A program made the translations under genes and the position numbers. Below the pieces are notes generated by a model, which was not told the DNA's origin, did not search any database, and worked only from the letters and a program-made list of their open reading frames with translations. A DNA stretch of 64,000 bases, from assembly GCF_022370835.2 (NCBI RefSeq), contig NZ_CP092365.1:2294001-2358000 (forward strand), written 5' to 3'. Positions 5,000 to 56,119 of the stretch are shown here, one piece after another (the stretch's first letter is position 1; each line of letters opens with the position of its first letter). The DNA comes from Mycolicibacillus parakoreensis (GTDB taxonomy: Bacteria > Actinomycetota > Actinomycetes > Mycobacteriales > Mycobacteriaceae).

Positions 5000-5014
5000 G
5001 ATAACTTTGTTCTC
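5000..5014. promoter_or_regulatory. operator copy 1 (mce promoter)
   Basis: GATAAC-TTT-GTTCTC, a 6-3-6 inverted repeat with one arm mismatch. It belongs to the GAGAAT-N3-ATTCTC family found ten times in the window. It sits 19 bp upstream of the small ORF that precedes mceA and just downstream of a likely -10 (TATGAT on the minus strand, 5026-5031), where a bound repressor would block transcription. Degenerate copy, therefore moderate confidence. Confidence 0.5.
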
Positions 5015-5146
5015 ACTATCGGCGAATCATACATTTGCGGTCCGGGAACACAAGCGTTTTTGCGATCTCACAGCCGTGGGTCCCGCGCCGGCTCGCCACG
5101 GACTCCGGGGGCTCCGACCCAGCTGAGAGACGGTTTGTCGCAACCC

Positions 5147-5180
5147 TTGTCATAAAGTCCCGCGCGAGAGTACAATTCTC
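5147..5180 (+). promoter_or_regulatory. promoter with operator copy 2 (SDR/P450 operon)
   Basis: TTGTCA (5147-5152), 18 bp spacing, TACAAT (5171-5176) form a sigmaA-like promoter for the plus-strand operon starting at 5225. The -10 lies inside the palindrome GAGAGT-ACA-ATTCTC (5166-5180), one base from the island consensus. A repressor bound here would cover the -10 element, the arrangement expected for TetR-type repression. Confidence 0.65.
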
Positions 5181-5224
5181 GACGTACGGAAGGCGTGATC
5201 TTGTAAAGTCAGCGTGGACGGGTC

Positions 5225-5938
5225 ATGAAGACGGCGGTGGTGACGGGAGGAGCATCGGGCATCGGTGCCGCGATCGTGGCCCGACTGCGCGCCGACGGAT
5301 ATCGGGTCGCGGTCTTCGACCGTGCCGTGAGCGAGGCGGCCGCGGCCGATGAGTGGGCGTTCGCGGCCGATGTCACCGACCGTGCCCAACTTGATGCGGC
5401 ACTCGCCCGCGTGCGCGACCAGGCGGGCCCGGTCACCATTGTGGTCAACGCGGCCGGCGCCGACGGCTTCAAACGGTTCTCCCGCATCGCCTTCGCGGAG
5501 TGGCAGCGGATCATCGACGTGAACCTCAACGGCGTCTTCCACACCATCCAGGCGACCCTGCCGGACATGGTGGAGGCCGGGTGGGGACGCATCGTCAACA
5601 TCTCCTCCTCGAGCACCCACTCGGGCACCCCGTACATGAGCCACTATGTCGCCGCGAAATCGGCGGTCAACGGATTGACCAAGAGTCTCGCCCTGGAGTA
5701 CGGGCCGAACGGGATCACGGTCAACGCCGTACCACCCGGTTTCATCGACACACCGATGTTGCGCAACGCCGACCGACAGGGCTTCCTCGGCGACATCGAG
5801 GACAACATCGCCAAGACGCCGGTGCGTCGGATCGGCAGGCCGGAGGACATCGCCGCCGCGTGCGCGTTCTTCGTCTCCGAGGAAGCCGGCTACATCACCG
5901 GCCAGATCCTCGGAGTCAACGGCGGCCGGAACACCTAG
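5225..5938 (+). CDS. SDR-family NAD(P)-dependent oxidoreductase
   Basis: 237-residue classical short-chain dehydrogenase. It has the cofactor motif TGGASGIG (residues 7-14), NAAG (75-78), N100, the catalytic Ser at about 128-130, and Y141/K145 of YxxxK. The C-terminal half has the GFIDTPM and YITGQILGVNGG features of FabG-like and 3-hydroxyacyl-CoA or hydroxysteroid dehydrogenases. First gene of an operon with a mycofactocin-type SDR, ferredoxin, P450 and 2OG dioxygenase. Likely oxidises an alcohol or 3-hydroxyacyl intermediate in the cytoplasm. The substrate is not deducible. Transcribed from the operator-covered promoter at 5147-5180. Confidence 0.85.
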   Translation: MKTAVVTGGASGIGAAIVARLRADGYRVAVFDRAVSEAAAADEWAFAADVTDRAQLDAALARVRDQAGPVTIVVNAAGADGFKRFSRIAFAEWQRIIDVNLNGVFHTIQATLPDMVEAGWGRIVNISSSSTHSGTPYMSHYVAAKSAVNGLTKSLALEYGPNGITVNAVPPGFIDTPMLRNADRQGFLGDIEDNIAKTPVRRIGRPEDIAAACAFFVSEEAGYITGQILGVNGGRNT

Positions 5939-5988
5939 CACGCGACTTCCTGCCGGTTCAACAAGTGCAGACAACGAAAGGACTACCC

Positions 5989-6849
5989 GTGGGACGTGTT
6001 GCAGACAAGGTCGCGTTCATCACCGGCGCGGCGCGCGGACAAGGCCGCAGCCACGCGCTGCGGCTGGCCGAAGAGGGCGCCGACATCATCGCCGTGGACC
6101 TCTGCGAGGACATCGACACCATCGGTTACCCGATGGCCAGACCCGAGGATCTCGACGAGACCGCCACGCTGGTCGAGAAGACCGGGCGCCGCATCGTGAC
6201 CGCACAGGCCGACGTCCGCGAGGCCGCACAACTGAAGTCCGCCCTGGACAACGGCCTGGCGGAGCTCGGCAAGGTCGACATCGTCGTCGCCCAGGCCGGC
6301 GTTGCCGGGATGAAGGGGCAGCCGCCGCTGCAGGCCTGGACCGATGTGATCAACACCAACCTGGTCGGCACCATCAACGCCATCCAGGTTGCGCTGCCCC
6401 ATCTGGACAACGGGGCCTCGATCATCGCGACAGCATCAGCGGCCGCCCTGATGGACGCACACCAAAAAGCCAACCCCGGCGGCGATCCCGGCGGCATGGC
6501 CTACATGACATCGAAACGCCTGATGGCGCACTACATTCATGATCTGGCTACCGAACTGGCGGTTCGCGGGATCCGCGCCAACGTCATCCACCCCACCAAC
6601 TGCAACACCGACATGCTGCAGAGCGAGCCGATGTACCGCTCGTTCCGACCGGATTTGGAGAATCCGGGCCGCGCCGATGCCGAGCCGGCGTTCTACGTCC
6701 AGCAGGCGATGAAGGTGCCGTTCATCGAACCCGACGACATCAGCAATGCCGTGTTGTGGCTCGCCTCGGAGGAATCCCGGTATGTGACCGGTATGCAGTT
6801 GCGCGTCGACGCGGGCGGCTATCTGAAGTGGTACGACTACCACGTCTGA
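5989..6849 (+). CDS. mycofactocin-dependent SDR (carveol dehydrogenase-like)
   Basis: 286 residues starting at GTG 5989, preceded by AAAGGA. It has the features of the mycofactocin-coupled SDR subfamily: GAARGQGRSHA cofactor loop, ADIIAVDLC after beta-2, YMTSK catalytic pair, and the C-terminal YVTGMQLRVDAGGYLK. By family knowledge these enzymes hold NAD without exchange and re-oxidise it through the redox peptide mycofactocin; carveol dehydrogenase is the type member. It follows another SDR by 50 bp and precedes a ferredoxin/P450 pair, so it may oxidise an alcohol made by that P450. A longer in-frame ORF from 5500 overlaps the upstream SDR and is rejected. Confidence 0.85.
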   Translation: MGRVADKVAFITGAARGQGRSHALRLAEEGADIIAVDLCEDIDTIGYPMARPEDLDETATLVEKTGRRIVTAQADVREAAQLKSALDNGLAELGKVDIVVAQAGVAGMKGQPPLQAWTDVINTNLVGTINAIQVALPHLDNGASIIATASAAALMDAHQKANPGGDPGGMAYMTSKRLMAHYIHDLATELAVRGIRANVIHPTNCNTDMLQSEPMYRSFRPDLENPGRADAEPAFYVQQAMKVPFIEPDDISNAVLWLASEESRYVTGMQLRVDAGGYLKWYDYHV

Positions 6850-6898
6850 CACATCTGACCATGCGACACCGAACATCGGCAGACAGGAAAGGAGCCCC

Positions 6899-7150
6899 AT
6901 GAAGGTCTGGGTTGATCCGCAACGATGCCAGGGGCACGGGCTCTGCCACATGATCGCCCCGGAATCATTTGACCTCGACGACGTCGACGGTCACTCGACC
7001 GCGGTCACCGCAGACGTTGCCGCCGACCAGGAGGAGCTGGTCACCGAAGCCATGCAATCGTGCCCGGAGCGCGCCATCTTCATCGACGGCAAGAACGCCG
7101 CCGATGAGTACGCCACTGGGGAAGGACAGCCAGATTGGATGACGCAATGA
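6899..7150 (+). CDS. [3Fe-4S] ferredoxin, P450 partner
   Basis: 83-residue ferredoxin with CX2HX2C (C10, H13, C16) and C55-Pro. In a [4Fe-4S] ferredoxin the middle position would be Cys; His there is common in actinobacterial P450 ferredoxins that bind a [3Fe-4S] cluster. GGAG lies upstream of the ATG. Its TGA overlaps the ATG of the following P450 gene (ATGA), so it is almost certainly that enzyme's electron donor. Confidence 0.9.
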   Translation: MKVWVDPQRCQGHGLCHMIAPESFDLDDVDGHSTAVTADVAADQEELVTEAMQSCPERAIFIDGKNAADEYATGEGQPDWMTQ

Positions 7151-8550
7151 GTGTTGACGACAGCGTGGAAACCAACGCCGAGGACGCCACCGCCGACGGC
7201 TCCGCCGACTTGAGCGACCACAAGCGGGAGCGCCTCTACCATTTCGATCGCCACACCCCGGAGTATCGCGAACAGTTCCTGGACATCACCAAGGAGATGC
7301 ACGAAAAGTGCCCGATGGCCTGGAGCGAGACCTACGACGGCCACTGGGTCGCCGCCGGCGCCCAGGAGGTCTTCGAACTGGCCCGGTGCCCGTACGTCTC
7401 CAACGACCACGACATCCACAATGAACGGCGCGGCTATAAGGGCATCTCGATCCCGCCGGCCAAACGTGCGGCCAACCGCGGCGGCGTGCTGGAAATGGAC
7501 GGGGAGGAACAGCAGTTCTACCGCCAACTGCTCAACCCGTACATGTCACCGGCCGCCATCAAGCGATGGATCCCGTTCATCAACGAGATCACCCGTGCGG
7601 CGATCAACGAGAAGATCGAACAGGGGCGCATCGACTTCGTCGACGATCTGGCCAACATCGTTCCGGCCGTCTTCACCCTGGCGATCCTCGGTATCCCGCT
7701 GAAGAACTGGACCATCTACTGCGAGCCGGTGCATGCCGCGGTCTACACCCCCGAGCATGACCCGGACTCGGTGCGCGTCGCCGAGCTCCACCGGGAAATG
7801 GGGCTGGACCTGCTCACCCACTACACCGAGATCAAGGCGAACCCGCGGCCCGGGATCGTCAACGCACTGGCCCAGGCACGCCGCGACGGTGAGCCGATCT
7901 CCGACCTGGACGCGCTGTCCATGGTGGGGGTGGTGATCGGCGGGGGCTTTGACACCACCACGGCGCTGACCGCCCACACCCTGGAGTGGCTGGCGCAGCA
8001 TCCCGATGAGCGCGAACGCCTCAGCCGTGAGCGCGACAAGCTGTTCAATCACGCCACCGAGGAGTTCCTGCGCTACTTCACCCCTGCCCCCGGCGATGGG
8101 CGCACCTTCTCCGAGGACGTCGAGGTGGCCGGGGTGAAGGTCAAAGAGGGTGAGCGGCTGTGGCTGTCCTGGGCGATGGCCAACCGGGATCCGTCGGCGT
8201 TCAACGAGCCCGACAAGCTCATCATGGACCGCAAGGGCAACCGGCACTTCAGCTTCGGGTTGGGTGTGCACCGCTGCATCGGTTCGCATGTCGCGCGGGC
8301 GGTGTACAAGTCGATGGTGCTCGCGGTGCTCGACCGGATGCCGGACTACCGCTGCGAGCCAGAGGGGACCGTGCACTACGACACGATCGGCGTCATCCAG
8401 GGGATGCGTCATCTGCCGGCGACCTTCACCCCCGGCGAGCCGATCGGACCGGGCCTCGAGGAGACCCTCGAGAAACTGCAGCGGATCTGCGACGAGCAGG
8501 AATGCGCCCGGCCGATCACCGAACTCAAAGACGAGGTCGTCATCGGCTGA
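7147..8550 (+). CDS. cytochrome P450
   Basis: 467-residue soluble bacterial P450. Heme-binding motif FGLGVHRCIG with Cys377; I-helix GGGFDTTTA carries the usual acid-alcohol pair; EEFLR supplies the K-helix ExxR. The ATG at 7147 overlaps the ferredoxin stop; an earlier in-frame ATG (7135) inside the ferredoxin is less likely. The N-terminus is acidic and soluble (about 35 residues). Likely hydroxylates the substrate or an early intermediate. The extended C-terminus beyond the fold (about residues 430-467) resembles that of other actinobacterial terpene/steroid-type P450s, but I cannot assign a CYP family. Confidence 0.9.
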   Translation: MSVDDSVETNAEDATADGSADLSDHKRERLYHFDRHTPEYREQFLDITKEMHEKCPMAWSETYDGHWVAAGAQEVFELARCPYVSNDHDIHNERRGYKGISIPPAKRAANRGGVLEMDGEEQQFYRQLLNPYMSPAAIKRWIPFINEITRAAINEKIEQGRIDFVDDLANIVPAVFTLAILGIPLKNWTIYCEPVHAAVYTPEHDPDSVRVAELHREMGLDLLTHYTEIKANPRPGIVNALAQARRDGEPISDLDALSMVGVVIGGGFDTTTALTAHTLEWLAQHPDERERLSRERDKLFNHATEEFLRYFTPAPGDGRTFSEDVEVAGVKVKEGERLWLSWAMANRDPSAFNEPDKLIMDRKGNRHFSFGLGVHRCIGSHVARAVYKSMVLAVLDRMPDYRCEPEGTVHYDTIGVIQGMRHLPATFTPGEPIGPGLEETLEKLQRICDEQECARPITELKDEVVIG

Positions 8551-8601
8551 CGCGTCTCGACGTCAACACCATCGCCGACAGTACGAGGGTAGGGCAGCGC
8601 C

Positions 8602-9444
8602 ATGACGATCAGCACTTCTGCGCTCACCGAGCTGACCGGGCTGGCGGTGTCGGGGGCGACCGCCGAGGACCTGATGCGGCCCGCCGCCGCCGCGGAATGC
8701 TTACACGACCTCGACGAGCACGGGGTGCTGGTCTACCGCCAGATCGGCCTCAGCGACGACGAGTTGGTCGCCTTCAGCAGAACACTGGGCACGGTGGTGG
8801 TGCAGCCCACCGGCGAACACCGGCTCCCCGAGATCCAGACCATCACCATGGATCCCACCAAGACCAACCCGGTGATGGCGTCGTATCGGCGGGGAAACTT
8901 CTACTGGCACATCGACGGTGCCACCCTCGAGGTTCCGCAGAAGGCGACGGTGTTGATCGCGCGAACTGTCGATCCGGCCGGGGGCGACACCGAGTTCGCC
9001 AACACCTACGCCGCCTACGCGGCGCTCAGCGACGCCCGCAAGGCCGAGATCGCCGATCTGCGGGTGCGCCACAGCTTCGCCCACGCCCAGTCGTTGGGCA
9101 ACCCCGACGCCGGCCCCGAGGAACGCAGGGCCTGGCAGCGGGTGCCCGACCGGACCCATCCGCTGGTCTGGACGCGCCGCAACGGCCGCAGGTCGCTGCT
9201 GCTGGGCGCCACCGCCGCCGAGGTCGTCGGGTGGCCCGCGCAGCGGGGTCGGGCGTTGCTCGATGAACTGCTGGAGTGGTCGACCCAACCCCGGTTCACG
9301 CTGCGGCATAAATGGAGCGTCGGCGACCTGGTCATCTGGGACAACACCGGCATGCTGCACCGCGCCCTGCCCTTCGCCGCCACCTCGGTGCGCCGGATCC
9401 ATCGCACCACGATCGCCGGCGAGGAATCCGTCTCGGCGGCCTAA
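8602..9444 (+). CDS. TauD/TfdA-family 2-oxoglutarate dioxygenase
   Basis: 280-residue Fe(II)/2-oxoglutarate-dependent oxygenase. Facial triad: H103-x-D105 (WHIDGA) and H253 (GMLHRA), with a downstream Arg in SVRRIHRTT to bind 2OG. Members hydroxylate taurine, 2,4-D, alkyl sulfates or carboxylic acids; the substrate here is unknown. Last gene of the plus operon starting at 5225. Its TAA overlaps the TAG of the convergent nitroreductase gene at the 4-bp sequence CTAA (9441-9444). Confidence 0.85.
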   Translation: MTISTSALTELTGLAVSGATAEDLMRPAAAAECLHDLDEHGVLVYRQIGLSDDELVAFSRTLGTVVVQPTGEHRLPEIQTITMDPTKTNPVMASYRRGNFYWHIDGATLEVPQKATVLIARTVDPAGGDTEFANTYAAYAALSDARKAEIADLRVRHSFAHAQSLGNPDAGPEERRAWQRVPDRTHPLVWTRRNGRRSLLLGATAAEVVGWPAQRGRALLDELLEWSTQPRFTLRHKWSVGDLVIWDNTGMLHRALPFAATSVRRIHRTTIAGEESVSAA

Positions 9445-10133
9445 CGCACCGGGCGGTTGGGCCCCGGGCCTCGGCCGGTCTCCGGGGCGGGGTGCAGGAT
9501 GTCGGTGGCGCGATGCCCCCAATGGTCCAGGTCGACGACCTCCTCAACCGGGCGGCGGCGTAGCGGCCCGTGCCGGCCCTTCGGCCAGCCCACCACGACG
9601 TGGCCGGCGAGAATCCAGTCCGGTGGGACCCCGACGGCCTCCCGCAGCAGCTGCTCGCCCCCGTAGGAGCACCAGCTGGTCAGACACGCACCCAGCCCCT
9701 GGGCACGGGCGGCCAGCAGAAAATTCTGCATCGCCGGGAAGATCGAACCGCCGAGAAGCAGCTCCGAGGCCGTCGAATACCGCTTCTGGACGAACAGCAC
9801 CGAGGTGAGGTCGCCGGCCCGATCGTGCAGTTCGTAGGTCGCACGGTCGGTGCGGGCCCGACGGCCGGTGTCCTCCGGCGACGGTCGGGTCATCCCGTAG
9901 ACCGGCTCGATGACCGCCAGGGCCTCGGCGGCGGCCCGGGCGACCACCGCACGCTGGGCCGGCGAACGCAGCACGACGAAGCGCCAGCCCTGGGCATTGG
10001 CGCCCGACGGGGCCCAGGTGGCGGCTTGCAGGCAGCGGCTCAACGTGACGTCATCGACCGGTTCGTCACGAAACCGCCGGATCGTTCGGGCGGTCGCCAG
10101 GACCTCCCAGATGTCGCTTGCCGTTGCTCTCAT
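9441..10133 (-). CDS. nitroreductase-family FMN oxidoreductase
   Basis: 230 residues from ATG 10133, preceded by GGAAGG; the longer ORF to 10304 adds only a low-complexity extension and is rejected. N-terminal RTIRRFRDEPV and the WAPSGANAQGWRF segment are the FMN/substrate pocket signature of NADH-oxidase/nitroreductases; the C-terminal half has AARAQGLGACLTSW. Probably reduces a quinone, enone or similar group, or works as a flavin reductase. Last gene of the minus-strand operon with two acyl-CoA dehydrogenases, 68 bp after the first of them. Confidence 0.8.
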   Translation of the reverse strand: MRATASDIWEVLATARTIRRFRDEPVDDVTLSRCLQAATWAPSGANAQGWRFVVLRSPAQRAVVARAAAEALAVIEPVYGMTRPSPEDTGRRARTDRATYELHDRAGDLTSVLFVQKRYSTASELLLGGSIFPAMQNFLLAARAQGLGACLTSWCSYGGEQLLREAVGVPPDWILAGHVVVGWPKGRHGPLRRRPVEEVVDLDHWGHRATDILHPAPETGRGPGPNRPVR

Positions 10134-10200
10134 CGACCTTCCTCTCGGGGCTTGCGCCGCGGCCGCCGCCGATGGGCGCCGGGGTGCGCCGTGGTGAGCC

Positions 10201-11376
10201 TCAGCCGCGGGGCAGCCCCAGTGCCTGCTGGGCGATGACATTGCGGTGGATCTCCGAAGTGCCGCCGGCGATGGTTCCGGAGAAGCTGCGGGCATGGCGC
10301 TCAAACCAGCTCGCGAAGTAGCTGTCGAGGTTCATCGGCGCGTACGGGCCGGACATCGCCGGGTGGACCAACCCGGCTGCCCCCGCAGCGGATAACGCAT
10401 GTTCGGAGGCGAACATCTCGGCCTCCGAACCGAGCAGCTTGAGCACCGACAGCGCGCCGATGTCGTCCTGGCCGCGGGCGGCGCGGGCCAGCGCGGCCGA
10501 GCCGAGCAGGCGCAACGCCTGGTAGTCCATGAGCGCGGTGGCGTACCGGTCACGTTCCAGCTCATCGCGGGGACCGGCGTCGGCGATGATGTTGTCCAGC
10601 CGGTCGGCGAAACCCAGCCACATCATCGTGCGTTCGTGACCCAGCGATCCGTTGGCCACCTTCCACCCGGCGTTGAGCGGGCCGACCAGGTTGGCCGCCG
10701 GTACCCGGGCGTCGGTGAAGAACACCTCGTTGAAGTCTTCGTCGTCGATGCCGCAGATCGTGGCGAACGGCCGGCACACCACACCCGGGGTGTCGGTGGG
10801 GATCAGCAAGGCGCTGATGCCCCGGTGTTTGGATGCGTCGGGGTCGGTGCGCACGAACGTCAGCAACACGTCGGCGTCGTGGGCACCCGAGGTCCACACC
10901 TTCTGGCCGTTGACGATGAAGTCCTCGCCGTCGCGCACCGCCCGGGTGCTCAGCGCGGCCAGATCCGACCCGGCGCTCGGTTCGCTCATTCCCAGCGATG
11001 CGGTGATCTCCGCGCGCAGGATCGGCACCGCCCAGCGGTGCTTCTGCTCCTCGCTGCCGAACGACAACAGCGACGCGGCAACGATGTTGACGCCCTGGGG
11101 GTTGAAGCTGTGGTAGATCCGACGCCGACACAGCTCCTCGAGGTGGACGAACTGTTGCAGCAGCCCGGCGTTGCGGCCGCCGAACTCCGGCGGGTTGCCC
11201 GGCAGCAACCAGCCGTTGTCGAACAGTAGACGCTGCCATCGGCGCGCCCAGTCCGGCATGTGGGACACCGAGCGGGGACGTTCCAACGTCTCGGCTTCGG
11301 CGGGCAGGTGCCGGTCGAGGAAGTCGGCGAACTCCGCGCGGAACGCCTCGACGTCGGGGTCAAATTCGAGTTGCAA
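10201..11376 (-). CDS. acyl-CoA dehydrogenase, catalytic subunit of a FadE pair
   Basis: 391 residues starting at TTG 11376 with GAGGAG upstream. ACAD fold: FGGRN in the N-terminal helices, GMSEPSAGSDLA and NGQKVWTSGAHDAD in the beta domain, and GTIAGGTSEIHRN at the C-terminus. The helix-G motif GHER places a Glu where isovaleryl-CoA and long-chain dehydrogenases have their base, so this is the catalytic member of a heteromeric pair. It overlaps the gene for the shorter partner by 17 bp. Very similar in length and sequence to the ACAD at 36556-37731, so the two are recent paralogues. Confidence 0.9.
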   Translation of the reverse strand: MQLEFDPDVEAFRAEFADFLDRHLPAEAETLERPRSVSHMPDWARRWQRLLFDNGWLLPGNPPEFGGRNAGLLQQFVHLEELCRRRIYHSFNPQGVNIVAASLLSFGSEEQKHRWAVPILRAEITASLGMSEPSAGSDLAALSTRAVRDGEDFIVNGQKVWTSGAHDADVLLTFVRTDPDASKHRGISALLIPTDTPGVVCRPFATICGIDDEDFNEVFFTDARVPAANLVGPLNAGWKVANGSLGHERTMMWLGFADRLDNIIADAGPRDELERDRYATALMDYQALRLLGSAALARAARGQDDIGALSVLKLLGSEAEMFASEHALSAAGAAGLVHPAMSGPYAPMNLDSYFASWFERHARSFSGTIAGGTSEIHRNVIAQQALGLPRG

Positions 11377-12376
11377 GGTGCTCCTCTGCGATCGTGGCCC
11401 GATGCTCGGCGGCGCCGCCGAGCATCAGCTCACCGGCCTTGGCCCGTTTCAGGGCGAACTGCAGATCGTTCTCCCAGGTGAAGCCCATGGCCCCGAACAG
11501 CTGGAGGCCGTGGCGGAACACCACCGACTGACACTCCCCCGCGGCTGCCTTGGCCATGTGGGCGGCCGTTCGCCGGCGCGGGTCGTCGGCCGCGATCGTC
11601 AGCGCGGCGAAATATCCCAGCGCCCGGGCCCGCTCGATGGCGACGTGCATGTCGGCGGCCTTGTGCTGCACGGCCTGGAAGGACCCGATCGGCACCCCGA
11701 ACTGGTAGCGGGTGCGAGCGTGTTCGAGGGCCAGATCGAGGATGCGCTGACAGGAGCCGACCATCGTCATCGCCATGCCGGTCAGCGCGACGTGCCGCGC
11801 CCGCTCGGCGTCCCCAGCGTCCCCGACGCGTGCGCTGTCGGGCACCGTGACCCCGGCGAAGGACACGTCGGCGACGTGCAGCGTCGGGTCGAACACCGCG
11901 GTGCGCCGCGCCGTCACCGCGGTGGCGTCGACCAGGAACACCCCGGCGGCGGTGACCACGGCGAGCCGGTCGGCCCGGTCGCCGTCGAGCACCTGCAGCG
12001 CGGTGCCGTCCAGGACCCACCCGTCGGCGTTGCGGTGCCCGCTGATCCCGGCGAGCACCGCCGCACCGCGGCCCCCGTCGGGGGTGTAGTGGCGGCCCGC
12101 CAGCGGCGCGAACTGGGTCAACGAGGCCAGAAACGGCGTCGGGTCGGTGGCCCGGCCCAACTCTTCGATGACGATCGCCAACTCGACCGCGGTGGCCGGC
12201 TCGTTGAGTTCGGTCCAGCCGAGGTCGCCGTAGAGCTTCCACAGCGGGTCGATGAGCTCACCGTCCGCACCGTTCTCGACGACGCTGCGCACCAGCGAGG
12301 CCGGGCACTGCTTGCCCACCACATCGCGCACCGTGTCCCGCAAAAGCCGCTGGTCGGAATCGAACTCCAGAAGCAT
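11360..12376 (-). CDS. acyl-CoA dehydrogenase, partner subunit of a FadE pair
   Basis: 338 residues from ATG 12376, which has GAGGTGA 7 nt upstream; a GTG three codons earlier (12385) is an alternative. C-terminal ACAD domain is clear (RTRYQFGVPIGSFQAVQH, LFGAMGFTWE). The helix-G Glu is absent (GMAMTMVGSC), so it should be non-catalytic, as in the alpha2-beta2 FadE complexes of mycobacterial sterol side-chain degradation where two ACAD genes lie side by side. First gene of the operon; operator copy 3 is 29 bp upstream. Confidence 0.88.
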   Translation of the reverse strand: MLLEFDSDQRLLRDTVRDVVGKQCPASLVRSVVENGADGELIDPLWKLYGDLGWTELNEPATAVELAIVIEELGRATDPTPFLASLTQFAPLAGRHYTPDGGRGAAVLAGISGHRNADGWVLDGTALQVLDGDRADRLAVVTAAGVFLVDATAVTARRTAVFDPTLHVADVSFAGVTVPDSARVGDAGDAERARHVALTGMAMTMVGSCQRILDLALEHARTRYQFGVPIGSFQAVQHKAADMHVAIERARALGYFAALTIAADDPRRRTAAHMAKAAAGECQSVVFRHGLQLFGAMGFTWENDLQFALKRAKAGELMLGGAAEHRATIAEEHLATRI

Positions 12377-13745: not shown

Positions 13746-13771
13746 GTCAGCCCCGAGTAAGGAAGACCACG

Positions 13772-31394: not shown

Positions 31395-31399
31395 TTACC

Positions 31400-48243: not shown

Positions 48244-49058
48244 CGGCCGCGGAGAAACTCCAGCAACAGGTCGTTGACGTCGCCCGCCTGCTCGATCTGC
48301 GGGCAGTGTCCGGCCTTGTCGATGACCGCGGAACGGCCGGCGGGGATCTGCGCGGCGATCTCGCCGGCCCAGCCCGGCGGCAGCAGCTTGTCGTCGGCTC
48401 CCTCGACCAGCAGCGCGGGGACCGCGATCCGCCGGTGGTCACGCGCTGTCCCGCCGGCCGGCGGCGGGGTTCCCGGGCGTCGGAATCGGGCGGCCGCCAC
48501 CGCCTCCCATGCGCCCGGTGCGGTACTGGATTCGTATCGGCGTCGCACGTAGGCCTCGTCGTCGGGGTATGCCGGGTCGTGAAACAGTGCCGTCACGATC
48601 TGGCGCATGGCCGGCATCGTGGCGTCGTAGTCGTAGAGCGCCTGCATGTGATCGTTGCGCTGGATCTCTCCGCCGCCGCAGAGCGCCACCATGGTGCGGA
48701 TCGGCAGCAGCGGGTTGGTTCCGGTGGTGTCGGCCAACAGCATGATCGCGCCCATCGAGTTGCCCACGAAGTGCGCCGACTCGATGTCCAGCAGCGCGCA
48801 GAATCGGGCGATGTGGCGGATGCGCATGCCGCGACCGTCGTTGAAGTCGATGACTTTGGCGGTCTGCCCGAACCCCAGCAGGTCGGGGGCCAGCACCCGG
48901 AAATGTTCGGCCAGTGCCGCGAGGTTGCGTTCCCAGCCCAGTTCGGCGCTGGCCCCGAATTCGCCACCGTGCAACAGGATCACCGGGTCCCCACGCCCGG
49001 CCTCCAGATAGCTGGTGGCCAGACCATCGACATCCAGGGTGTGACGCTGAATCTTCAA
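48240..49058 (-). CDS. alpha/beta hydrolase, MCP hydrolase-like
   Basis: 272 residues from TTG 49058 with AGGAG upstream. HGGEFGASAE, PDLLGFGQT, nucleophile elbow GNSMG (Ser101), VEGADDKLL (acid) and AGHCPQIEQ (His). This set resembles meta-cleavage product hydrolases (BphD/HsaD type), which open C-C bonds after ring cleavage, though other hydrolases share it. It follows the cyclase gene in the same direction, which also fits ring-product hydrolysis. Confidence 0.85.
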   Translation of the reverse strand: MKIQRHTLDVDGLATSYLEAGRGDPVILLHGGEFGASAELGWERNLAALAEHFRVLAPDLLGFGQTAKVIDFNDGRGMRIRHIARFCALLDIESAHFVGNSMGAIMLLADTTGTNPLLPIRTMVALCGGGEIQRNDHMQALYDYDATMPAMRQIVTALFHDPAYPDDEAYVRRRYESSTAPGAWEAVAAARFRRPGTPPPAGGTARDHRRIAVPALLVEGADDKLLPPGWAGEIAAQIPAGRSAVIDKAGHCPQIEQAGDVNDLLLEFLRGR

Positions 49059-49140
49059 ACCAGACTCCTACTTCGGGTTCGCGTGACGCCGACTCGCGCC
49101 GGCACCCAGCGGTCTCGACGACCTGCACACCGGCGTCCAC

Positions 49141-50130
49141 TCATTTGATCGCAATGGGGTTGACCGGCGAGCCCACCGCACCGGTCACCCGTAGCGGCGG
49201 CGCGACCAACTGGAACTCGTAGACCCCGTCGGCGGCGCAGTCGGCCGCCAGGGCCTGGAAATCCCAGTACTCGCCGAGCATCATGCCCATGTCGCGCAGG
49301 CACAGCATGTGCATGGGCAGATAGGTGCCCTCCACCCCCGAGACGGGGTCTTCGACCATCAGGTTGTCCGCGGCCACCGCCGCGACCTGGTGATCATGGA
49401 GCCACGCCGCACAGCTCCAGTCCAGCCCGGCCCCGAGCTCGGCGCCGTCACCGGTGCTCAAAAACCGCGACCACCAGCCGGTCCGGACCAAAACGATGTC
49501 GCCCCGCCCGACGGTCACCCCCTGCGATGCCGCCACCCGGTCGAGTTCGTCGGGGGTGATCGGCGTGCCGTGTTCCAAAAAGGTCTGCGCACCCCGGTGG
49601 GCGACCAGATCCAGCAGCACCCCCCGGGAGGTGATGCCTTTGGCGTCGACCTTGTCGATTCCGCAGTGATATGCGCCCAGACTGGTGACCGACCCCGCGG
49701 GGAACCCGTTGTAGAGCAGATCGTCGTAGTACACGTGCGACAGTGCGTCCCACTGCGTCGCCGCCTGCAGCGGCATCACGATCATGTCGTCGTTGAATCG
49801 GAACGGGTTGTCGGTGAAGAACTCACCGAGTTGGTGTGCCGCCAGGTTGCGTGACCATCCCACACCGTAGCGGGCCAACGTGGTGACATCGCCGCCGTCA
49901 ACGGTCATGACGTGGACCGGATTCTGCCGGAATGCGAACGCCCCCTGCGGGCCGGCGGAACTGAAATCGACCCCCAGAGCGAACACCCGACCGTGGCGCA
50001 CCAAGCTCGCCGCCTCGGCCACCTTCTCGGCGTCGATGAAGTTCAGCGTGCCCAGTTCGTCGTCGTCACCCCAGCGTCCCCAGTTGCGGACGTCGGCGCC
50101 CAGACGACGGAACTCGTCGAGGGTGCCCAC
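49141..50130 (-). CDS. cyclase-family (kynurenine formamidase-like) hydrolase
   Basis: 329 residues from GTG 50130, one base overlapping the SDR stop. QWDALSHVYYDD matches the conserved HxxxxD/H region of PF04199, with metal ligands probably from ALSH and the GAYHCGIDKVDAKGITSRGVLLDL strand, typical of the family. Such enzymes hydrolyse cyclic amides or lactones, or open rings. Coupled to the SDR and followed by the MCP-like hydrolase after 82 bp. Confidence 0.82.
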   Translation of the reverse strand: MGTLDEFRRLGADVRNWGRWGDDDELGTLNFIDAEKVAEAASLVRHGRVFALGVDFSSAGPQGAFAFRQNPVHVMTVDGGDVTTLARYGVGWSRNLAAHQLGEFFTDNPFRFNDDMIVMPLQAATQWDALSHVYYDDLLYNGFPAGSVTSLGAYHCGIDKVDAKGITSRGVLLDLVAHRGAQTFLEHGTPITPDELDRVAASQGVTVGRGDIVLVRTGWWSRFLSTGDGAELGAGLDWSCAAWLHDHQVAAVAADNLMVEDPVSGVEGTYLPMHMLCLRDMGMMLGEYWDFQALAADCAADGVYEFQLVAPPLRVTGAVGSPVNPIAIK

Positions 50131-50948
50131 TAGGCCCGGTCCTCATCGAGCTCGGCGGCCATACTCGCCGCGAGGTTGCCGCCGTCGACCCAGACGACCT
50201 GGCCGGAGATATAGCTGGCTGCGGCACTGTTGAGAAACGCCAGTACGGCGGCCTGCTCTTGCGGCTCGCAACTGCGGCCCAGCGGTTTGGCGATGCGGTC
50301 GAGGAAGCCCTGACCGTAGGCGGTGCGCAACTGCTCGAGGATCGGGGTCTCGGTCACCCCGGGCCCGGTGCAGTTGATCCGGATACCGCGACGCCCCAGC
50401 CGCACCGTGTTGGCCATGGTGTAGAGGATCACCGCTTCTTTGGACAACCGGTACCCGCCGTCGGACAGCGCATCGGGGTGGTCGCGACACCAGCGGATCC
50501 CCTCGGCGACCGTGCGGGTGCCCAGCAGGCCGGCGACCTCCTCACGGTGGTTCTGGTATCCCGACGCCGCCAGCGACGACACGCTGACCACCGACGAACC
50601 CGAGGGCATGGTCGCCACCACGGCCTCGGTCAGATGGCGCAGGCCGAGGAAGTTGACGGTGACCACCAACGCGGGATCACCGATCCCCGACGAGACCCCG
50701 GCGACGTTGAACAGCGCGTCGACCGGACCGTTGAGGGCCGCCACTGCGCGGTCGACGGAGACCGGGTCGGCCAGGTCGATCCGGTGGAACTCGGCGAGGT
50801 CGCCGGCCGGGTCCGCCCGGTCCACTCCGATCACCTCGGCGCCGAGCTCGGTCAGTTGGCCGACCAGCTGCGCGCCGATACCCGAGGCGCACCCGGTGAC
50901 CAGCGCACGTCGGCCGTCGTAGCGCCACAGTCGCTCGATCCGGCCCAT
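50130..50948 (-). CDS. SDR-family oxidoreductase
   Basis: 272 residues from ATG 50948, preceded by AGGGTGGAA; the frame to 50981 is an extension. TGCASGIG cofactor motif, FNVAG, SSLAASGYQ with the catalytic Ser, YRLSK for Tyr/Lys, and GQVVWVDGG. A long insert between Ser and Tyr (about 35 residues) is characteristic of 3alpha-hydroxysteroid/carbonyl reductase-like SDRs. First gene of the operon controlled by operator copy 9. Confidence 0.87.
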   Translation of the reverse strand: MGRIERLWRYDGRRALVTGCASGIGAQLVGQLTELGAEVIGVDRADPAGDLAEFHRIDLADPVSVDRAVAALNGPVDALFNVAGVSSGIGDPALVVTVNFLGLRHLTEAVVATMPSGSSVVSVSSLAASGYQNHREEVAGLLGTRTVAEGIRWCRDHPDALSDGGYRLSKEAVILYTMANTVRLGRRGIRINCTGPGVTETPILEQLRTAYGQGFLDRIAKPLGRSCEPQEQAAVLAFLNSAAASYISGQVVWVDGGNLAASMAAELDEDRA

Positions 50949-51006
50949 TTCCACCCTGCCGCGGTACGTCGGTCTACACAAACACGCAATTGCGTTCTCG
51001 CCATCG

Positions 51007-51021
51007 TAGAGTATGACTCTC
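51007..51021. promoter_or_regulatory. operator copy 9 (TAGAGT-ATG-ACTCTC)
   Basis: 6-3-6 repeat with arms TAGAGT/ACTCTC, 58 bp upstream of the SDR at 50948. A -10-like TACGAT overlaps it on the minus strand. Variant but in the right position. Confidence 0.5.
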
Positions 51022-51029
51022 GACGGCGG

Positions 51030-51920
51030 TCACTCCTCGGGGCTCAGCAGTCCTTCTGCGGCCGAATAGGGGTCGGCCTGTCCGTCGACCACCTGCTCGG
51101 CGAGCCGCCGCAGCCCCGGATGGGTGCGCAACCGCGACTGCGCCAGCGACAGAATCTGCGACCGCGCGCGGGCCAGTTGCCGGTCGCGGTTGTCGGCGCG
51201 GTGGTGGGCGTCGATCACCGCCACCAGGTCGGCGATCCCCTCGCCGCGGGTGGCGATCAAGGTGAGGATCGGGGCCCCGGAATGCTTCAGCTCGATGCGC
51301 AGATCGCGCACCGTCTGGGCGGCGCCGTCACGGTCGGCCTTGTTGACCACCACCACGTCGGCCACCTCCAGCAGCCCCGCCTTGGCCGCCTGGACCGCGT
51401 CGCCGGCACCCGGATTGAGCACCACGATCGTCGGGTCGGCGACCGCGGCGATCTCGATCTCGGATTGGCCCACCCCCACCGTCTCCAGCAGGATGACGTC
51501 GTAGTCCAACCCCGCCAGCAGGCGTATCGCCGCGGGCACCGAGGCGGACAGGCCCCCCAGATGCCCGCGCGACGCCACCGACCGGATCAGCACTCCGGTG
51601 TCGCCGACGTGTCCGGCCATCCGGATGCGATCGCCGAGCAGGGCCCCGCCGCTGTAGGGCGACGACGGGTCGACGGCGAGCACCGCGACCCGCAAGCCCT
51701 GCTCGCGGTAGGCGCCGACCAGCGCCCCGACCGCGGTGGACTTGCCCGCCCCCGGCGGGCCGGTCACCCCGACGACCCGCGTGGAGGACGGCGCGAGATC
51801 GGCCAGGACTTCGGCGCGCCGCTCACCCTCGATCAGGGTGAGCAGGCGCCCGGCCGCGCGGACGGATCCACCCCGAGCTGCCGCGATCAACTCGGCGATC
51901 GTCGTGGCGATGGCTACCAC
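51030..51920 (-). CDS. MeaB/ArgK-type GTPase
   Basis: 296 residues from GTG 51920. G3E-family P-loop GTPase: Walker A GPPGAGKST (54-62), DPSS, switch ETVGVGQSE and NKAD. MeaB proteins protect and reload adenosylcobalamin acyl-CoA mutases (methylmalonyl-, isobutyryl-CoA mutase). No mutase gene is in the window, so the partner is elsewhere or the island yields a branched acyl-CoA that feeds into it. Last gene of the operon from 56081; starts 7 bp after the crotonase stop. Confidence 0.88.
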   Translation of the reverse strand: MVAIATTIAELIAAARGGSVRAAGRLLTLIEGERRAEVLADLAPSSTRVVGVTGPPGAGKSTAVGALVGAYREQGLRVAVLAVDPSSPYSGGALLGDRIRMAGHVGDTGVLIRSVASRGHLGGLSASVPAAIRLLAGLDYDVILLETVGVGQSEIEIAAVADPTIVVLNPGAGDAVQAAKAGLLEVADVVVVNKADRDGAAQTVRDLRIELKHSGAPILTLIATRGEGIADLVAVIDAHHRADNRDRQLARARSQILSLAQSRLRTHPGLRRLAEQVVDGQADPYSAAEGLLSPEE

Positions 51921-51927
51921 CCCCCAT

Positions 51928-52695
51928 CTAGTTCTTGCCCGCGGTGAGCCGCGCGACGATCGCGGCGAAATCCTCGGTCTGGAACGACTGGTCCTCGGCC
52001 ATGTTGGCGAAATCCAGGGTGGCCAGCACGGCGCGCTCCAGGTGGATGTTGAGCAGCCGTTTGGTGCTCTCCACCGCCTGGCGCGGCAGCTCGGCGATGC
52101 GGCGGGCGCACGCGGTCGCCTCGGCCAGCGGATCGTCGACGACATGGTTGGCCAGGCCCAGCTGCACCGCCCGCTCGGCACCGATCTTGGCTCCGGTCAA
52201 CGCGTATTCCTTGGCCAACAGCAGACTCATCTGCAGCGGCCAGGTCAACGGCCCCCCGTCGGCGGCGACCAGCCCGACCTGCACGTGCGGGTCGGCGAGG
52301 TAGGCCTGTTCGGCGATGAAGACGAGGTCGCTCAACGCGACCAGGCTGCAGCCCAGCCCGACCGCGGGTCCGTTGACCGCGGCGATCACCGGGGTCCGGC
52401 AGCGCGCCATACCCAGCACGATCTCACGTCCGTGCACGATGGTCTTGGCGCGCAGCCGCTCGTCGCGACGCAGCTCGTCGAGGTAGCCGAAGTCGCCTCC
52501 GGCGGAGAACGCCCGCCCGGCGCCGGTCAGCACCGCTGCCCGGGCATCGTGGTCCTCGTCGAGCCGCGGCCAGAGTTTCGCCAAGCCGGTGTGCAGGTCG
52601 TCGTTGACCGCGTTGAGCGCGTCGGGGCGGTTCAAGGTGATGATCCGCAGCTCCCCGTCGGCGCGGACGTCGATCTCGTCGGGCATGTCGTACAT
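51928..52695 (-). CDS. enoyl-CoA hydratase/isomerase (crotonase family)
   Basis: 255 residues. NRPDALNAVNDDL, GAGRAFSAGGDFGYL oxyanion segment, GPAVGLGCSLVALSDL and VGLVAADGGPLTWPL are crotonase hallmarks. The active-site acid positions differ from the 25993 paralogue, so the reaction may be hydration or C-C cleavage. Between MeaB and the FadE pair in the operon from 56081. Confidence 0.87.
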   Translation of the reverse strand: MYDMPDEIDVRADGELRIITLNRPDALNAVNDDLHTGLAKLWPRLDEDHDARAAVLTGAGRAFSAGGDFGYLDELRRDERLRAKTIVHGREIVLGMARCRTPVIAAVNGPAVGLGCSLVALSDLVFIAEQAYLADPHVQVGLVAADGGPLTWPLQMSLLLAKEYALTGAKIGAERAVQLGLANHVVDDPLAEATACARRIAELPRQAVESTKRLLNIHLERAVLATLDFANMAEDQSFQTEDFAAIVARLTAGKN

Positions 52696-52697
52696 GG

Positions 52698-53789
52698 TCA
52701 GACTCCTAATCCCAGGATTCGGCCGGCGATGATGTTCTTCTGGATCTGCGAGGTCCCGCCCATCACGCTCTGAGCGCGGCTGTACAGGTAGGCACTGAGC
52801 AGTTCGTGGTCCTCGGTTCCGGTCACCGCCAGCGCCGCATGACCGACGGCCTGCTCCACCCAGGTCATCAGCAGTTTGTCCAATGATCCCTCCGGACCGT
52901 GCGAGACCCCGTCGAGTTGTTCGGAGAGCCGGCGGCGCACGTGCAGCCGCAGCATCTCGGCCTGCACCGCCGCCCAGGTCAGCTCCTCGGGGATCTCCTC
53001 ACCGGCCCGGTCGATCAGCTGGCGCACCAGCTTGGCGTAACGGGCCGAGTATCCCAGCGTGGACGGTTCCCGTTCGTGGCCGACCACCGTCATCGCCAGC
53101 GCCCAGCCCTCCCCCGGCGCGCCGACCATCTGACTGGCCGGCACCGTCGCACCGTCGAAGGTGACCTGGCCGAATTCGGTGGTGACCCCGTTGATCATCT
53201 GCAGCGGCCGCTGGGCGATGCCCGGCTGGTCCATGGCCACGACGAACGCCGAGATGCCGCGATGCCGGGGCGCGTCGGGGTCGGTGCGGGCCAGTAGCAA
53301 ACACCAGTCGGCGACGTCGGAGTAGCTGGTCCAGATCTTGTGCCCGTGGACGAGGTAGTCGTCCCCGACCCGGGTGGCGGTGGTGGTCAGCGAGGCCAAA
53401 TCCGATCCGGCTCCGGGCTCGGAGAAGCCCTGGCACCACCGTTCGGTGCCGTCGATCATGCCGGGCAGGAATCGTTGCTGCAGCTCGGGGTCGCCGTGCC
53501 GGCCGAGTCCGACCACCAGGTACCCCAGGCTCGGCCGCGGCGGCGCCCCGGCGCGGGCCAGTTCCTCGTCGACGATGACGTCGTAGACCGGCGCCAACTC
53601 GTGACCGCCGTACCGACGCGGCCAGGACATCCCGAAGAACCCGGCGCGGTAGAGGTCCTGGTGCCACTCGCCCTGCCGCGCCCAGTACTCGTCGGCGCCG
53701 GCGGCGGGGAACGTGCCCGCCCGCTCGGTCAGCCAGGAGCGCAGCCGGCCGCGGAACTCGGCTTCCTCCGGTGAATCACGAAAGTCCAC
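52698..53789 (-). CDS. acyl-CoA dehydrogenase, catalytic subunit of a FadE pair
   Basis: 363 residues from GTG 53789. WPRRYGGHELAP, GFSEPGAGSDLASL, HGHKIWTSYSDVADW, GGTSQIQKNIIAGRILGL; helix-G motif GHEREP gives the Glu. It overlaps the partner ACAD by 14 bp. Third FadE pair in the window, resembling the 34648 type more than the 10201 type. Confidence 0.9.
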   Translation of the reverse strand: MDFRDSPEEAEFRGRLRSWLTERAGTFPAAGADEYWARQGEWHQDLYRAGFFGMSWPRRYGGHELAPVYDVIVDEELARAGAPPRPSLGYLVVGLGRHGDPELQQRFLPGMIDGTERWCQGFSEPGAGSDLASLTTTATRVGDDYLVHGHKIWTSYSDVADWCLLLARTDPDAPRHRGISAFVVAMDQPGIAQRPLQMINGVTTEFGQVTFDGATVPASQMVGAPGEGWALAMTVVGHEREPSTLGYSARYAKLVRQLIDRAGEEIPEELTWAAVQAEMLRLHVRRRLSEQLDGVSHGPEGSLDKLLMTWVEQAVGHAALAVTGTEDHELLSAYLYSRAQSVMGGTSQIQKNIIAGRILGLGV

Positions 53790-54681
53790 TGTTGACCTCC
53801 TTCAACGTGACCCGCCACAGGTCGGCGTCGACCAGGGCGCGCCGCAGATAGACGTGGGCCAGGCACTCCCAGGTGTTGCCGATCCCGCCGTGCACCTGAA
53901 TGGCGGTCTCACACACGGTGCGCGCCGCCCGGGCGCAGTAGAGCTTGGCGACCCGGGCCGCCTGCAGCGCCTCGCCGGGGTCGAGCTCATCGACGGCCCA
54001 GGCGGCGTGCCGGACCACGCTGATCGAGCCCTCGATCAGCGTGGCCGCCTCGGCCAGCAGGTGCGCGACGGCCTGATACGACCCGATGGTCTTGCCGTAC
54101 TGTTCGCGGATTTTGGCGTAGTCGCAGGCGAGGCTGTGGGCACCGCGGGCCGCGCCGACCAGGTCCGCACCGGTGGCGACCAGCGCCAGCGCCCGCCAGG
54201 CCGTGGCGTCACCGGGCGCCAGTTCGCCGAGGCGCTCGGTGGTCGCGCCGGGGCGGGCGGTGCGCCGGGTCAGATCGACGCCCGCTTCGGCGGCGCCCGG
54301 GGTGGCGGCCACCACGGTGTCGTCGCGCAGATCCAGCGCCCGCTCGGCGCCGCAGACCTCGATCGCGTTGCCCGCCGCCACGATCGTGGTCGCTCCGGTG
54401 CTCACGTTGAGCCGGTGACACAGGTCGTCGGCGAGCACCGGTCCCAAAAACGGCACGTCGACCAGGCCCCGGGCGAACTCCTCGGCGACGATCGCGACCT
54501 CCACCCCGGAGGCGCCGTCGCTGCGCAGGGTGCGCCAGCCGGTTGCGTCGACGGTCTTCTCCAGCCGCCGGCGGCGACGCTCGTCGTCGAGGTCGGCGAC
54601 CGATCCGGGCCCGAGGTCATCGGCGAGTTTTGCCGCGGCGTCGCGCAATTGCCGCTGTTCGGTGTTCAGCCGGACATCCAC
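53776..54681 (-). CDS. acyl-CoA dehydrogenase, partner subunit of a FadE pair
   Basis: 301 residues from GTG 54681, overlapping the CoA ligase stop by 16 bp. KIREQYGKTIGSYQAVAHLLAE and AIQVHGGIGNTWE are the C-terminal ACAD segments. No helix-G Glu (GADLVGAAR), so a non-catalytic partner. The ORF extension to 54978 lies inside the ligase gene. Confidence 0.87.
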   Translation of the reverse strand: MDVRLNTEQRQLRDAAAKLADDLGPGSVADLDDERRRRRLEKTVDATGWRTLRSDGASGVEVAIVAEEFARGLVDVPFLGPVLADDLCHRLNVSTGATTIVAAGNAIEVCGAERALDLRDDTVVAATPGAAEAGVDLTRRTARPGATTERLGELAPGDATAWRALALVATGADLVGAARGAHSLACDYAKIREQYGKTIGSYQAVAHLLAEAATLIEGSISVVRHAAWAVDELDPGEALQAARVAKLYCARAARTVCETAIQVHGGIGNTWECLAHVYLRRALVDADLWRVTLKEVNSGLS

Positions 54682-56081
54682 AGGTGCTCCTTCAACACTC
54701 GGCGTAACAGTTTTCCCGACGCCAGCCGCGGAATCTCCGGGACGAAGACGACGCGGGTGGGTGTCTTGTAGGAGGCCAAACGGGCGGCGACCAGATCGCT
54801 CAGTTCCTCGCCGGTCACCGGCGCCTCCGCGCGCACCGCGGCGACGACGGCCTCGCCGTTGTCCGCGTCGGGCAGGCCGAACACGGCGCAGTCGGCGACG
54901 GCCGGATGCCCGTGCAACACCGCCTCGACCTCCGCGGGCGCGACCTGAAAGCCGCGCACCTTGACCATCTCCTTGCATCGGTCGGTGATCCGCAGCCAGC
55001 CGTCGTCGTCGAGATAGCCCAGGTCGCCGGTGCGGTACCAGCCGTCGGCGACGACCTGCGCGGTGGCCTCGTCGGGCAGATACCCGGCCATCAACGACTC
55101 GGAGCGCGCACGGATCTCACCGATCTCACCGGGGCCGGCCGGTCGGCCGGATTCCGGCGCCACCACCTGGACCTCGACGCCGGGCACCGCGGGTCCGACG
55201 CTGTCCAGCCGCGCCGCCCCGGGCGGGTTGCAGGCGATGACCGGCACCTCGCTGGTGCCGTAGGCGGGGACCCACCGCACCCCGGTGCGCCTGGTGACGC
55301 TCTCGGCGACGTCGGCGGCGACCGGGGTCGCGCCCCACATGATGTAGCGCAGCGACGACAGGTCGTAGCGCTCCAGGTCCGGGTGCCGGGCCAGGGCGAG
55401 CGCGATGGGCGCGACCGCCATCTCCACGGTGATCCGGTCGGCCTCGATGTGGTGCAGCATCGTGTCCACGTCGAACCGTCGGTGCAGCCGCACCGTCGCC
55501 CCGCAGCACAGGGCGGTGAGGATGTTGAGCAGACCCAGGATGTGCGACGGCGGGGTGGCGACCTGGATCCGGTCCGCACCGGTCAGCCCCAACGCGGTCT
55601 GCCAGTGCTGCACGGCCGCCGCCAGCGAACGGTGGGTGTGGCGGACTGCCTTGGGCAGGCCGGTGGTGCCGGAGCTGAACACCAGCAGCGCATCGGCGGC
55701 CGGGTCGGCCGCCGGCGGCGGGTCGGCGGGCCGGCCGGCGGGGATCGCGGCGTCGAGGTGGCGCATCGTCGGCATCAACTCGGCCAGCACCGGATGGTCG
55801 CCGACGGCGTGGCGCGGCTGGGTCAGCGCCAGCGCGTGCGCCACCTCGGCGCGCCGGTGGGCCGGGCTGAGCAGGACCGCGACCGCGCCGAGTCGCCACA
55901 CCGCCCGCAGCGCGACGAGGAACTCCGGGCGCGTGGACGCCATCAGCGCGACCCGCTCACCGGTGGTGACGCCGTCGGCGGCGAGTTCGCCGGCCAGGGC
56001 CGCGGCCGATCGGTCCAGCTCGCGCAGCCGGTACCGCTGGTCCTCGAACACGAGCACCGCCGCGGGCGAGCCTGACAACAT
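54666..56081 (-). CDS. acyl-CoA synthetase (AMP-forming)
   Basis: 471 residues from ATG 56081 with AGGA upstream. A3 motif VFSSGTTGLPKAV, AYGTSE, YRTGDLGYLDDDGW, GFQVAPAEVE and C-terminal LASGKLLRR with the catalytic Lys. It is short at the N-terminus, about 60-80 residues less than usual ligases. Activates a carboxylic acid to its CoA ester at the head of an operon with a FadE pair, crotonase and MeaB. A 1007-codon ORF in the same frame reaches to 57689 but is antisense to the reductase. Confidence 0.9.
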   Translation of the reverse strand: MLSGSPAAVLVFEDQRYRLRELDRSAAALAGELAADGVTTGERVALMASTRPEFLVALRAVWRLGAVAVLLSPAHRRAEVAHALALTQPRHAVGDHPVLAELMPTMRHLDAAIPAGRPADPPPAADPAADALLVFSSGTTGLPKAVRHTHRSLAAAVQHWQTALGLTGADRIQVATPPSHILGLLNILTALCCGATVRLHRRFDVDTMLHHIEADRITVEMAVAPIALALARHPDLERYDLSSLRYIMWGATPVAADVAESVTRRTGVRWVPAYGTSEVPVIACNPPGAARLDSVGPAVPGVEVQVVAPESGRPAGPGEIGEIRARSESLMAGYLPDEATAQVVADGWYRTGDLGYLDDDGWLRITDRCKEMVKVRGFQVAPAEVEAVLHGHPAVADCAVFGLPDADNGEAVVAAVRAEAPVTGEELSDLVAARLASYKTPTRVVFVPEIPRLASGKLLRRVLKEHLWMSG

Positions 56082-56104
56082 TTGAGACGATCCTATCGTT
56101 TTGC

Positions 56105-56119
56105 GAGAATAGTATTCTC
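56105..56119. promoter_or_regulatory. operator copy 10, perfect (GAGAAT-AGT-ATTCTC)
   Basis: Perfect palindrome 23 bp from the ligase ATG (-) and 4 bp from the reductase ATG (+). TAGTAT (56110-56115) inside it would be a -10 giving a leaderless reductase mRNA at about 56124. Controls both divergent operons. Confidence 0.75.

Follow-up and report, generated by a model that had tools for sequence, protein, structure and literature searches.

The window analysed here, 64,000 nucleotides of the Mycolicibacillus parakoreensis genome (contig NZ_CP092365.1, positions 2,294,001 to 2,358,000), carries repeated copies of the palindrome GAGAAT-N3-ATTCTC in front of catabolic operons. Judged from sequence comparisons, this palindrome is very likely the operator of a TetR-family repressor controlling a catabolic regulon, the candidates being the protein encoded at window position 37917 (TetR 37917) and its paralogue encoded at genome position 2164522. 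The regulon is real, large and genus-wide, and the candidate repressor is a strong one; the kind of regulon is known, and the member described here is apparently new. For most TetR proteins of mycobacteria no physiological role is known (PMC4482099). One of them is provided here, from sequence alone, with a clear operator, more than 12 target promoters and a genus-wide distribution. Positions refer to the window unless they are marked as genome positions.

Operator sites in the window and in the genome

A pattern scan of the window returned all ten palindromes located by a preliminary description, with 0 to 3 mismatches each, including the three perfect ones (12406, 30818 and 56105). At up to three mismatches the window contains 16 matches, compared with a mean of 7.9 and a maximum of 14 in shuffled windows. 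Because matches with three mismatches are frequent by chance, counts say little about such sites, and the analysis was therefore widened to the full genome sequence, to further genomes and to a weight matrix.

Throughout the 3.94-Mb genome, nine matches with at most one mismatch were found versus none for the reversed pattern, and 31 versus four at up to two mismatches. Five of the nine are perfect and four have one mismatch, against 0.02 and 1.1 expected genome-wide from base composition. These nine sites span genome positions 2144796–2350119, that is 205 kilobases (kb) or 5% of the genome.

The matrix was trained on distinct sites with up to two mismatches from 80 named tetR loci (the best 80 of 417, many from closely related species) and on 34 footprint sites, all from genomes other than that of M. 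parakoreensis. Twenty block shuffles of a 286-kb island with 275 called genes served as background and gave the number of sites expected per island at each score. The matrix leans to the consensus, by which its training sites were chosen, and it is not fully independent of the footprints because the training set holds orthologous promoters of some tested sites. Sites 5166, 12406, 12506, 23595, 30818 and 56105 had an expected number of 0.00 per island. In total, 13 island sites scored at least 17.5, a level at which shuffles give at most 0.2. All 13 are intergenic, though intergenic DNA makes up 9.3% of the island, and all lie within 131 base pairs (bp) of a start codon (distances 12–131 bp; random median 556 bp).

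Conservation was followed in a footprint set of 30 chosen genomes other than that of M. parakoreensis (17 with the TetR and 13 without), in which six window genes were searched. The sites are as follows (matrix score; expected number per island).

5000..5014: operator ahead of the mce operon (leftward); score 17.5, expected 0.20
5166..5180: operator of the rightward operon for short-chain dehydrogenases/reductases (SDRs), ferredoxin, cytochrome P450 and TauD; score 20.1; conserved in 14 of 17 genomes
12406..12420: operator of leftward acyl-coenzyme A (CoA) dehydrogenase genes; perfect; at least one site in the divergent promoter in 17 of 17 genomes
12506..12520: operator of the rightward amidohydrolase operon; score 20.8; two sites in the promoter in 9 of 17 genomes
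23595..23609: operator of the CYP150A6-like P450 gene (leftward); score 21.7; found in 10 of 16 testable promoters at up to two mismatches
30643..30657: possible operator of a leftward amidohydrolase gene, beyond the ten; GGAAATTAGCTTCTC; score 10.9, expected 3.85, weak
30818..30832: operator of the carboxymuconolactone decarboxylase (CMD)/Rieske oxygenase operon; perfect; 44 of 45 orthologous promoters at up to one mismatch, 35 of them perfect
37788..37802: operator between tetR and the divergent acyl-CoA dehydrogenase gene; GAGAACAACGTTCTT, degenerate here; score 18.8, expected 0.10
37875..37889: possible additional operator 28 bp before tetR; TAAAATGATGTTCTC; score 15.3, expected 0.80; weak
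42147..42161: probable operator of the aldehyde dehydrogenase gene; score 15.7, expected 0.80
56105..56119: operator common to the CoA ligase (leftward) and oxygenase reductase (rightward) genes; perfect; perfect in both of the 2 genomes, among 30 searched, that encode the reductase

Nine of the ten proposed sites are supported by the matrix or by orthologous promoters, 42147 weakly. The tenth, 51007..51021, was rejected as an operator (score 11.7, expected 2.9; present in 0 of 17 orthologous promoters). It sits within the leftward gene run 56081–48240, and no promoter is needed before gene 50954 because this gene is internal to the run headed by 56081. Sites 42147 and 37875 and those at genome positions 2289784 and 2279942 are plausible (expected 0.8–1.25 each).

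All 17 tetR-positive genomes and none of the 13 tetR-negative ones have the genes for SDR 5225, amidohydrolase 12621 and SDR 50954. CYP150 22266 is likewise present in all 17 positives, one copy being cut by a contig end; one of the 13 negatives has a partial match of 62%, which lacks a site. Seven of 17 genomes retain the 5000 site as GATAATTTCATTCTC or a close variant of it, and the 5166 site is missing in G004, G024 and G012. The counts given for 12406 and 12506 refer to sites with at most two mismatches; for 23595, allowing three raises the count to 12 of 16. The 45 loci that carry enough DNA upstream of the 30852–31400 genes gave no match with the reversed pattern at up to one mismatch. 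As regards 30643, GAAAATTAGCTTCTC recurs in loci L098, L132 and L138 177–178 bp upstream of the main site of the 30818 type. A counterpart of 37875 (up to two mismatches, same place) was not found in the named tetR loci listed. For 42147, the counterpart GAGAAGGGGATTATC is present in the orthologue promoter of genome G022, and the other five genomes with the gene have none; the same form is also found 3' of tetR in the Mycolicibacter loci L080, L102, L133, L141 and L146.

That the pattern arose by chance or composition and was merely picked out by eye deserves almost no credence. The window count at three mismatches, only about twice the shuffled mean, would fit such an origin, and 51007 is a site of that kind; the genome-wide counts, the intergenic placement and the conservation in the genus refute it for the strong sites.

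Strong sites were also located beyond the window, at genome positions 2144796, 2164361, 2165215, 2253488 and 2369347. Whereas the idea of one regulon put forward in the preliminary description is upheld, its span of about 50 kb is not: once these outside operators are counted, the regulon would extend over about 225 kb.

The candidate repressor and its inheritance with the motif

The regulator gene of the window is the following.

37917..38573, + strand: TetR-family regulator, candidate repressor, 218 amino acids (Pfam TetR_N)

Its N-terminal helix-turn-helix matches PF00440 with 31.1 bits (cut-off 24), and the AlphaFold model shows an all-helical TetR fold with a separate C-terminal ligand domain (mean pLDDT 84). 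Orthologues that are 78–85% identical were found in 19 of the 24 nearest congeners; 16 other genomes of the order gave only weak matches (E 8e-9 or worse). Carriers of the gene include Mycolicibacterium vaccae and M. neoaurum.

All 80 named loci carry a perfect operator 128–145 bp upstream of tetR, the flanking columns holding 0 to 2 bits and varying for the most part. In the 1.25 Mb that these loci comprise, there are 135 perfect, 48 one-mismatch and 58 two-mismatch matches, as compared with 0, 0 and 11 for the reversed pattern. A further site with up to two mismatches lies 600–1500 bp after the tetR start in 72 loci (reversed pattern, 4 of 80). The tetR gene belongs to the most conserved syntenic block, genes 33025–35736 adjoining it in 75–77 of the 80 loci, and it is the sole recognised regulator in the shared block when the window genes, some of them family-searched, are compared with these loci. 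Together with the genus-wide co-occurrence described below, the conserved block and the operator in 80 of 80 loci make the earlier assignment of TetR 37917 as the regulator well supported though unproven.

The second TetR, at genome position 2164522, is 75% identical to TetR 37917, and the two proteins differ at two residues around the recognition helix. A perfect operator precedes its gene by 147 bp; on the other side a one-mismatch operator lies 46 bp past the gene end, with 98 bp left to the next gene. In M. parakoreensis it is therefore the paralogue that is accompanied by a perfect operator and the window copy by a degenerate one. To judge from these flanking sites, the second TetR probably shares control with TetR 37917.

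Most characterised TetR proteins repress. It is improbable, if somewhat less so than a confusion with a published motif discussed below, that TetR 37917 is an activator or a dual regulator instead: operator–start distances of 12–131 bp permit either sign, but in the 80-locus tetR consensus a TACAAT element, recognised by eye, starts about 13 bp past the operator, which would thereby cover the –35 region.

Co-occurrence was examined in 198 genomes of the genus, that of M. parakoreensis included, which were at least 90% complete; tetR was scored as present at E values up to 1e-60. An orthologue was found in 168 genomes and was absent from 30, the assignment of 10 of the latter being derived from the genome list of the motif counts. 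The median number of motif matches with up to one mismatch is 12 in tetR-positive and 2 in tetR-negative genomes (Mann-Whitney p 2e-17, relatedness not corrected for), and at least seven matches are present in 162 of 168 positives versus 1 of 30 negatives. Regulator and operator are inherited together, as expected of one regulon under TetR 37917. For five tetR-negative genomes one motif match apiece was viewed. The matches in G019 and G003 fit background because they lie inside open reading frames; the sites viewed in G002, G009 and G015 are not covered by any called coding frame.

Several observations weigh against TetR 37917 as the regulator of all these sites. The operator of tetR, perfect in the 80 other loci, is degenerate in the window. 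Co-inheritance fails to single out tetR, since other island genes track the motif equally. At the threshold used, no TetR was found in G158, which has 11 matches (93% complete assembly), or in G019, which has six; a gap in the assembly or another binder may account for these two. Conversely, six tetR-positive genomes (G041, G069, G076, G101, G188 and G215) have at most five matches. In four of them (G041, G069, G188 and G215) the TetR E value is unusually weak (1e-83 to 1e-104), yet G172 and G072 combine similarly weak values with 11 and 12 matches. Few genomes of the genus sample have the genes behind 42147 and 56105: of 30 genomes, 6 encode aldehyde dehydrogenase 42183 (E up to 1e-190) and 2 encode reductase 56124 (E up to 1e-90), and therefore not all targets are shared. 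Finally, the fold matches of the TetR model are tied between acyl-CoA-type and drug-type regulators, and the ligand class proposed below is weakly supported.

We also considered that the sites are operators of another regulator and that tetR is merely one of its targets. The island does contain an IclR-type gene at genome position 2280055 and further genes that look regulator-like by sequence, co-inheritance cannot separate genes of one island, and the degenerate local operator would be compatible with such a role. We nevertheless regard this as unlikely in view of the absence of any other recognised regulator from the shared block, of the operators that flank the TetR paralogue, and of the near-constant distance between operator and tetR in 80 of 80 loci, which is typical of autoregulation.

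Relation to known regulons and proposed mechanism

The regulons of KstR and KstR2, which govern cholesterol catabolism in mycobacteria, resemble the one described here in that TetR-type repressors act at short palindromes on genes for CoA ligases, acyl-CoA dehydrogenases, thiolases and mce proteins. They differ in their regulators, TetR 37917 being just 17–18% identical to the KstR and KstR2 structures in structural alignments. The operators were compared in the 286-kb island using the KstR and KstR2 motifs as given in the preliminary description, with no mismatch allowed for KstR and up to one for KstR2 and the Rv0767c-type pattern. The KstR operator TnnAACnnGTTnnA gave a single exact match in the island, inside a gene (reversed control, two), and the KstR2 operator AnCAAGnnCTTGnT gave five matches versus seven for the reversed pattern, so that the island belongs to neither regulon by these patterns. 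One intergenic KstR2-like match with one mismatch overlaps the operator at genome position 2369347. The earlier view that the regulon is separate from those of KstR and KstR2 is borne out, as neither pattern is enriched.

A candidate for identity is 'motif X'. As described in PMC6593523, this palindrome precedes 14 operons of a phytosterol-grown Mycobacterium, which encode P450s, dehydrogenases and three TetR proteins, and it is called very similar to the Rv0767c motif. A TetR, palindromic operators and P450-rich catabolic operons are thus common to both systems. The Rv0767c gene, which we take to be divergent to Rv0768, offers a means of comparison. Promoters of Rv0768-family (TIGR04284) aldehyde dehydrogenase genes were read in 29 genomes of the genus, M. 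parakoreensis included (L257–L285), and carry the conserved palindrome TGGACA-N2-TGTCCA or near variants of it. Their best match to the GAGAAT palindrome has at least three mismatches in 28 of the 29 and two in the remaining one. TGGACA-N2-TGTCCA is likely the Rv0767c-type operator, and published motif X, whose letters are given in a figure only, most likely corresponds to it and not to the GAGAAT palindrome. With up to one mismatch, TGGACA-N2-TGTCCA has no match in the 286-kb island, which would set the island apart from the Rv0767c/motif X regulon. It would hence be very surprising if the regulon were the one already described under that name. No description of GAGAAT-N3-ATTCTC in mycobacteria was found in the open PubMed Central papers searched; the tentative label of an undescribed regulon holds for these papers and no wider.

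Two further TetR systems are of interest. Mce3R of M. tuberculosis likewise provides TetR-type control of lipid genes; it has a double TetR motif and a non-palindromic target according to PMC11667970, unlike the single 218-amino-acid TetR and the palindrome found here. The fold matches of the TetR 37917 model include acyl-CoA-responsive FadR proteins and KstR2. Bacillus FadR, an acyl-CoA-responsive TetR, is about 15–19% identical and tied with EthR2 and Rv0078, QacR being slightly lower; because of this tie no function was assigned from the fold.

Taking these data together, we propose that a TetR dimer binds the 15-bp site beside or over the promoter and would thereby block transcription, including that of its own gene. 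An intermediate of the pathway would bind to the C-terminal pocket and free the DNA. Our best guess for this ligand is a lipid or terpenoid acid, cyclic or branched, in the form of its CoA thioester, because CoA chemistry dominates the controlled genes and because KstR2, a regulator of the same family with a similar gene set, responds to the CoA thioester HIP-CoA (PMC6593523). Release of the repressor would switch on P450 and Rieske oxygenases, CoA ligases, paired acyl-CoA dehydrogenases, thiolases, CoA transferases and the mce-type import operon. The regulon probably serves to break down a lipid- or terpene-like compound via an uncharacterised pathway. It is tempting, if distinctly speculative, to view it as a genus-wide regulon of non-tuberculous mycobacteria, KstR-like in kind and directed at another cyclic compound, perhaps a gem-dimethyl terpenoid. 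Such a regulon would include a dedicated import operon, oxygenases, CoA steps that cleave the ring, a cobalamin-dependent acyl-CoA mutase and a duplicated TetR pair sensing a CoA thioester. The operons mark a large catabolic programme and could serve as a marker in the search for its substrate, which would be the compound that induces them.

Genes behind the operators

Operon membership was deduced from spacing and strand, and part of the genes were family-searched. The predicted target genes of the window are listed below.

63..4876, – strand: mce genes of the lipid-import type, controlled from the 5000 operator if it acts as proposed; they continue beyond the left end of the window
5225..9444, + strand: two SDRs, 4Fe-4S ferredoxin, P450 and TauD dioxygenase (family search)
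9441..12376, – strand: paired acyl-CoA dehydrogenase genes and a nitroreductase family gene (family search)
12621..16205, + strand: two amidohydrolases, Rieske ferredoxin and alpha/beta hydrolase (family search)
22266..23564, – strand: cytochrome P450 of the CYP150A6 kind (PDB 6dcd, E 7e-146)
30852..36551, + strand: CMD family gene, Rieske oxygenase, amidohydrolase, SnoaL-like gene and acyl-CoA dehydrogenases (family search)
48240..56081, – strand: CoA ligase, acyl-CoA dehydrogenases, enoyl-CoA hydratase, MeaB GTPase, SDR, cyclase and hydrolase (gene calls and family search); the gene heading this run is 54666–56081
56124..58053, + strand: oxygenase reductase (FAD/NAD/2Fe-2S) and SDR (family search)

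Two of the four mce genes in the window were family-searched and matched Mce4_CUP1/MlaD, the first gene also TIGR00996; the rest were assigned by position. The run as a whole comprises six mce-like genes (genome 2291319–2298876), three confirmed by profile and three by position, and no yrbE-like permease gene was noticed among its called neighbours. A reading frame of about 34 codons overlaps the start of the first mce gene. If the operators act as proposed, the mce import operon and a CYP150-type P450 would be tied to one controlled pathway.

Outside the window, the predicted targets of strong sites are an AMP-dependent ligase gene (genome 2144876), enoyl-CoA hydratase and thiolase genes adjoining the second TetR, an amidohydrolase gene (genome 2252274), and genes for an SDR and Rieske oxygenases (genome 2368540, leftward). 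Weaker sites precede an MhpA-like hydroxylase operon (genome 2279942) and an aldehyde dehydrogenase gene (genome 2289784). Distant from the island, GATAATACTATTCGC at genome 3500046–3500060 (L014:10046-10060) lies directly ahead of a 345-amino-acid reading frame that has no Pfam match.

Window positions 38772–42014, which lie between tetR and the aldehyde dehydrogenase gene, encode a fused double CoA-transferase III as well as a KsgA-like methyltransferase. In G022 the distance from the end of tetR to the start of the aldehyde dehydrogenase gene is about 0.8 kb. The MeaB-type GTPase is encoded at 51030–51920, and a split cobalamin-dependent acyl-CoA mutase is encoded near the second TetR (genome 2168462–2170467; L287:6462-8467). 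GTPase and mutase together would allow the carbon skeleton to be rearranged, a step to be expected if the substrate is branched.

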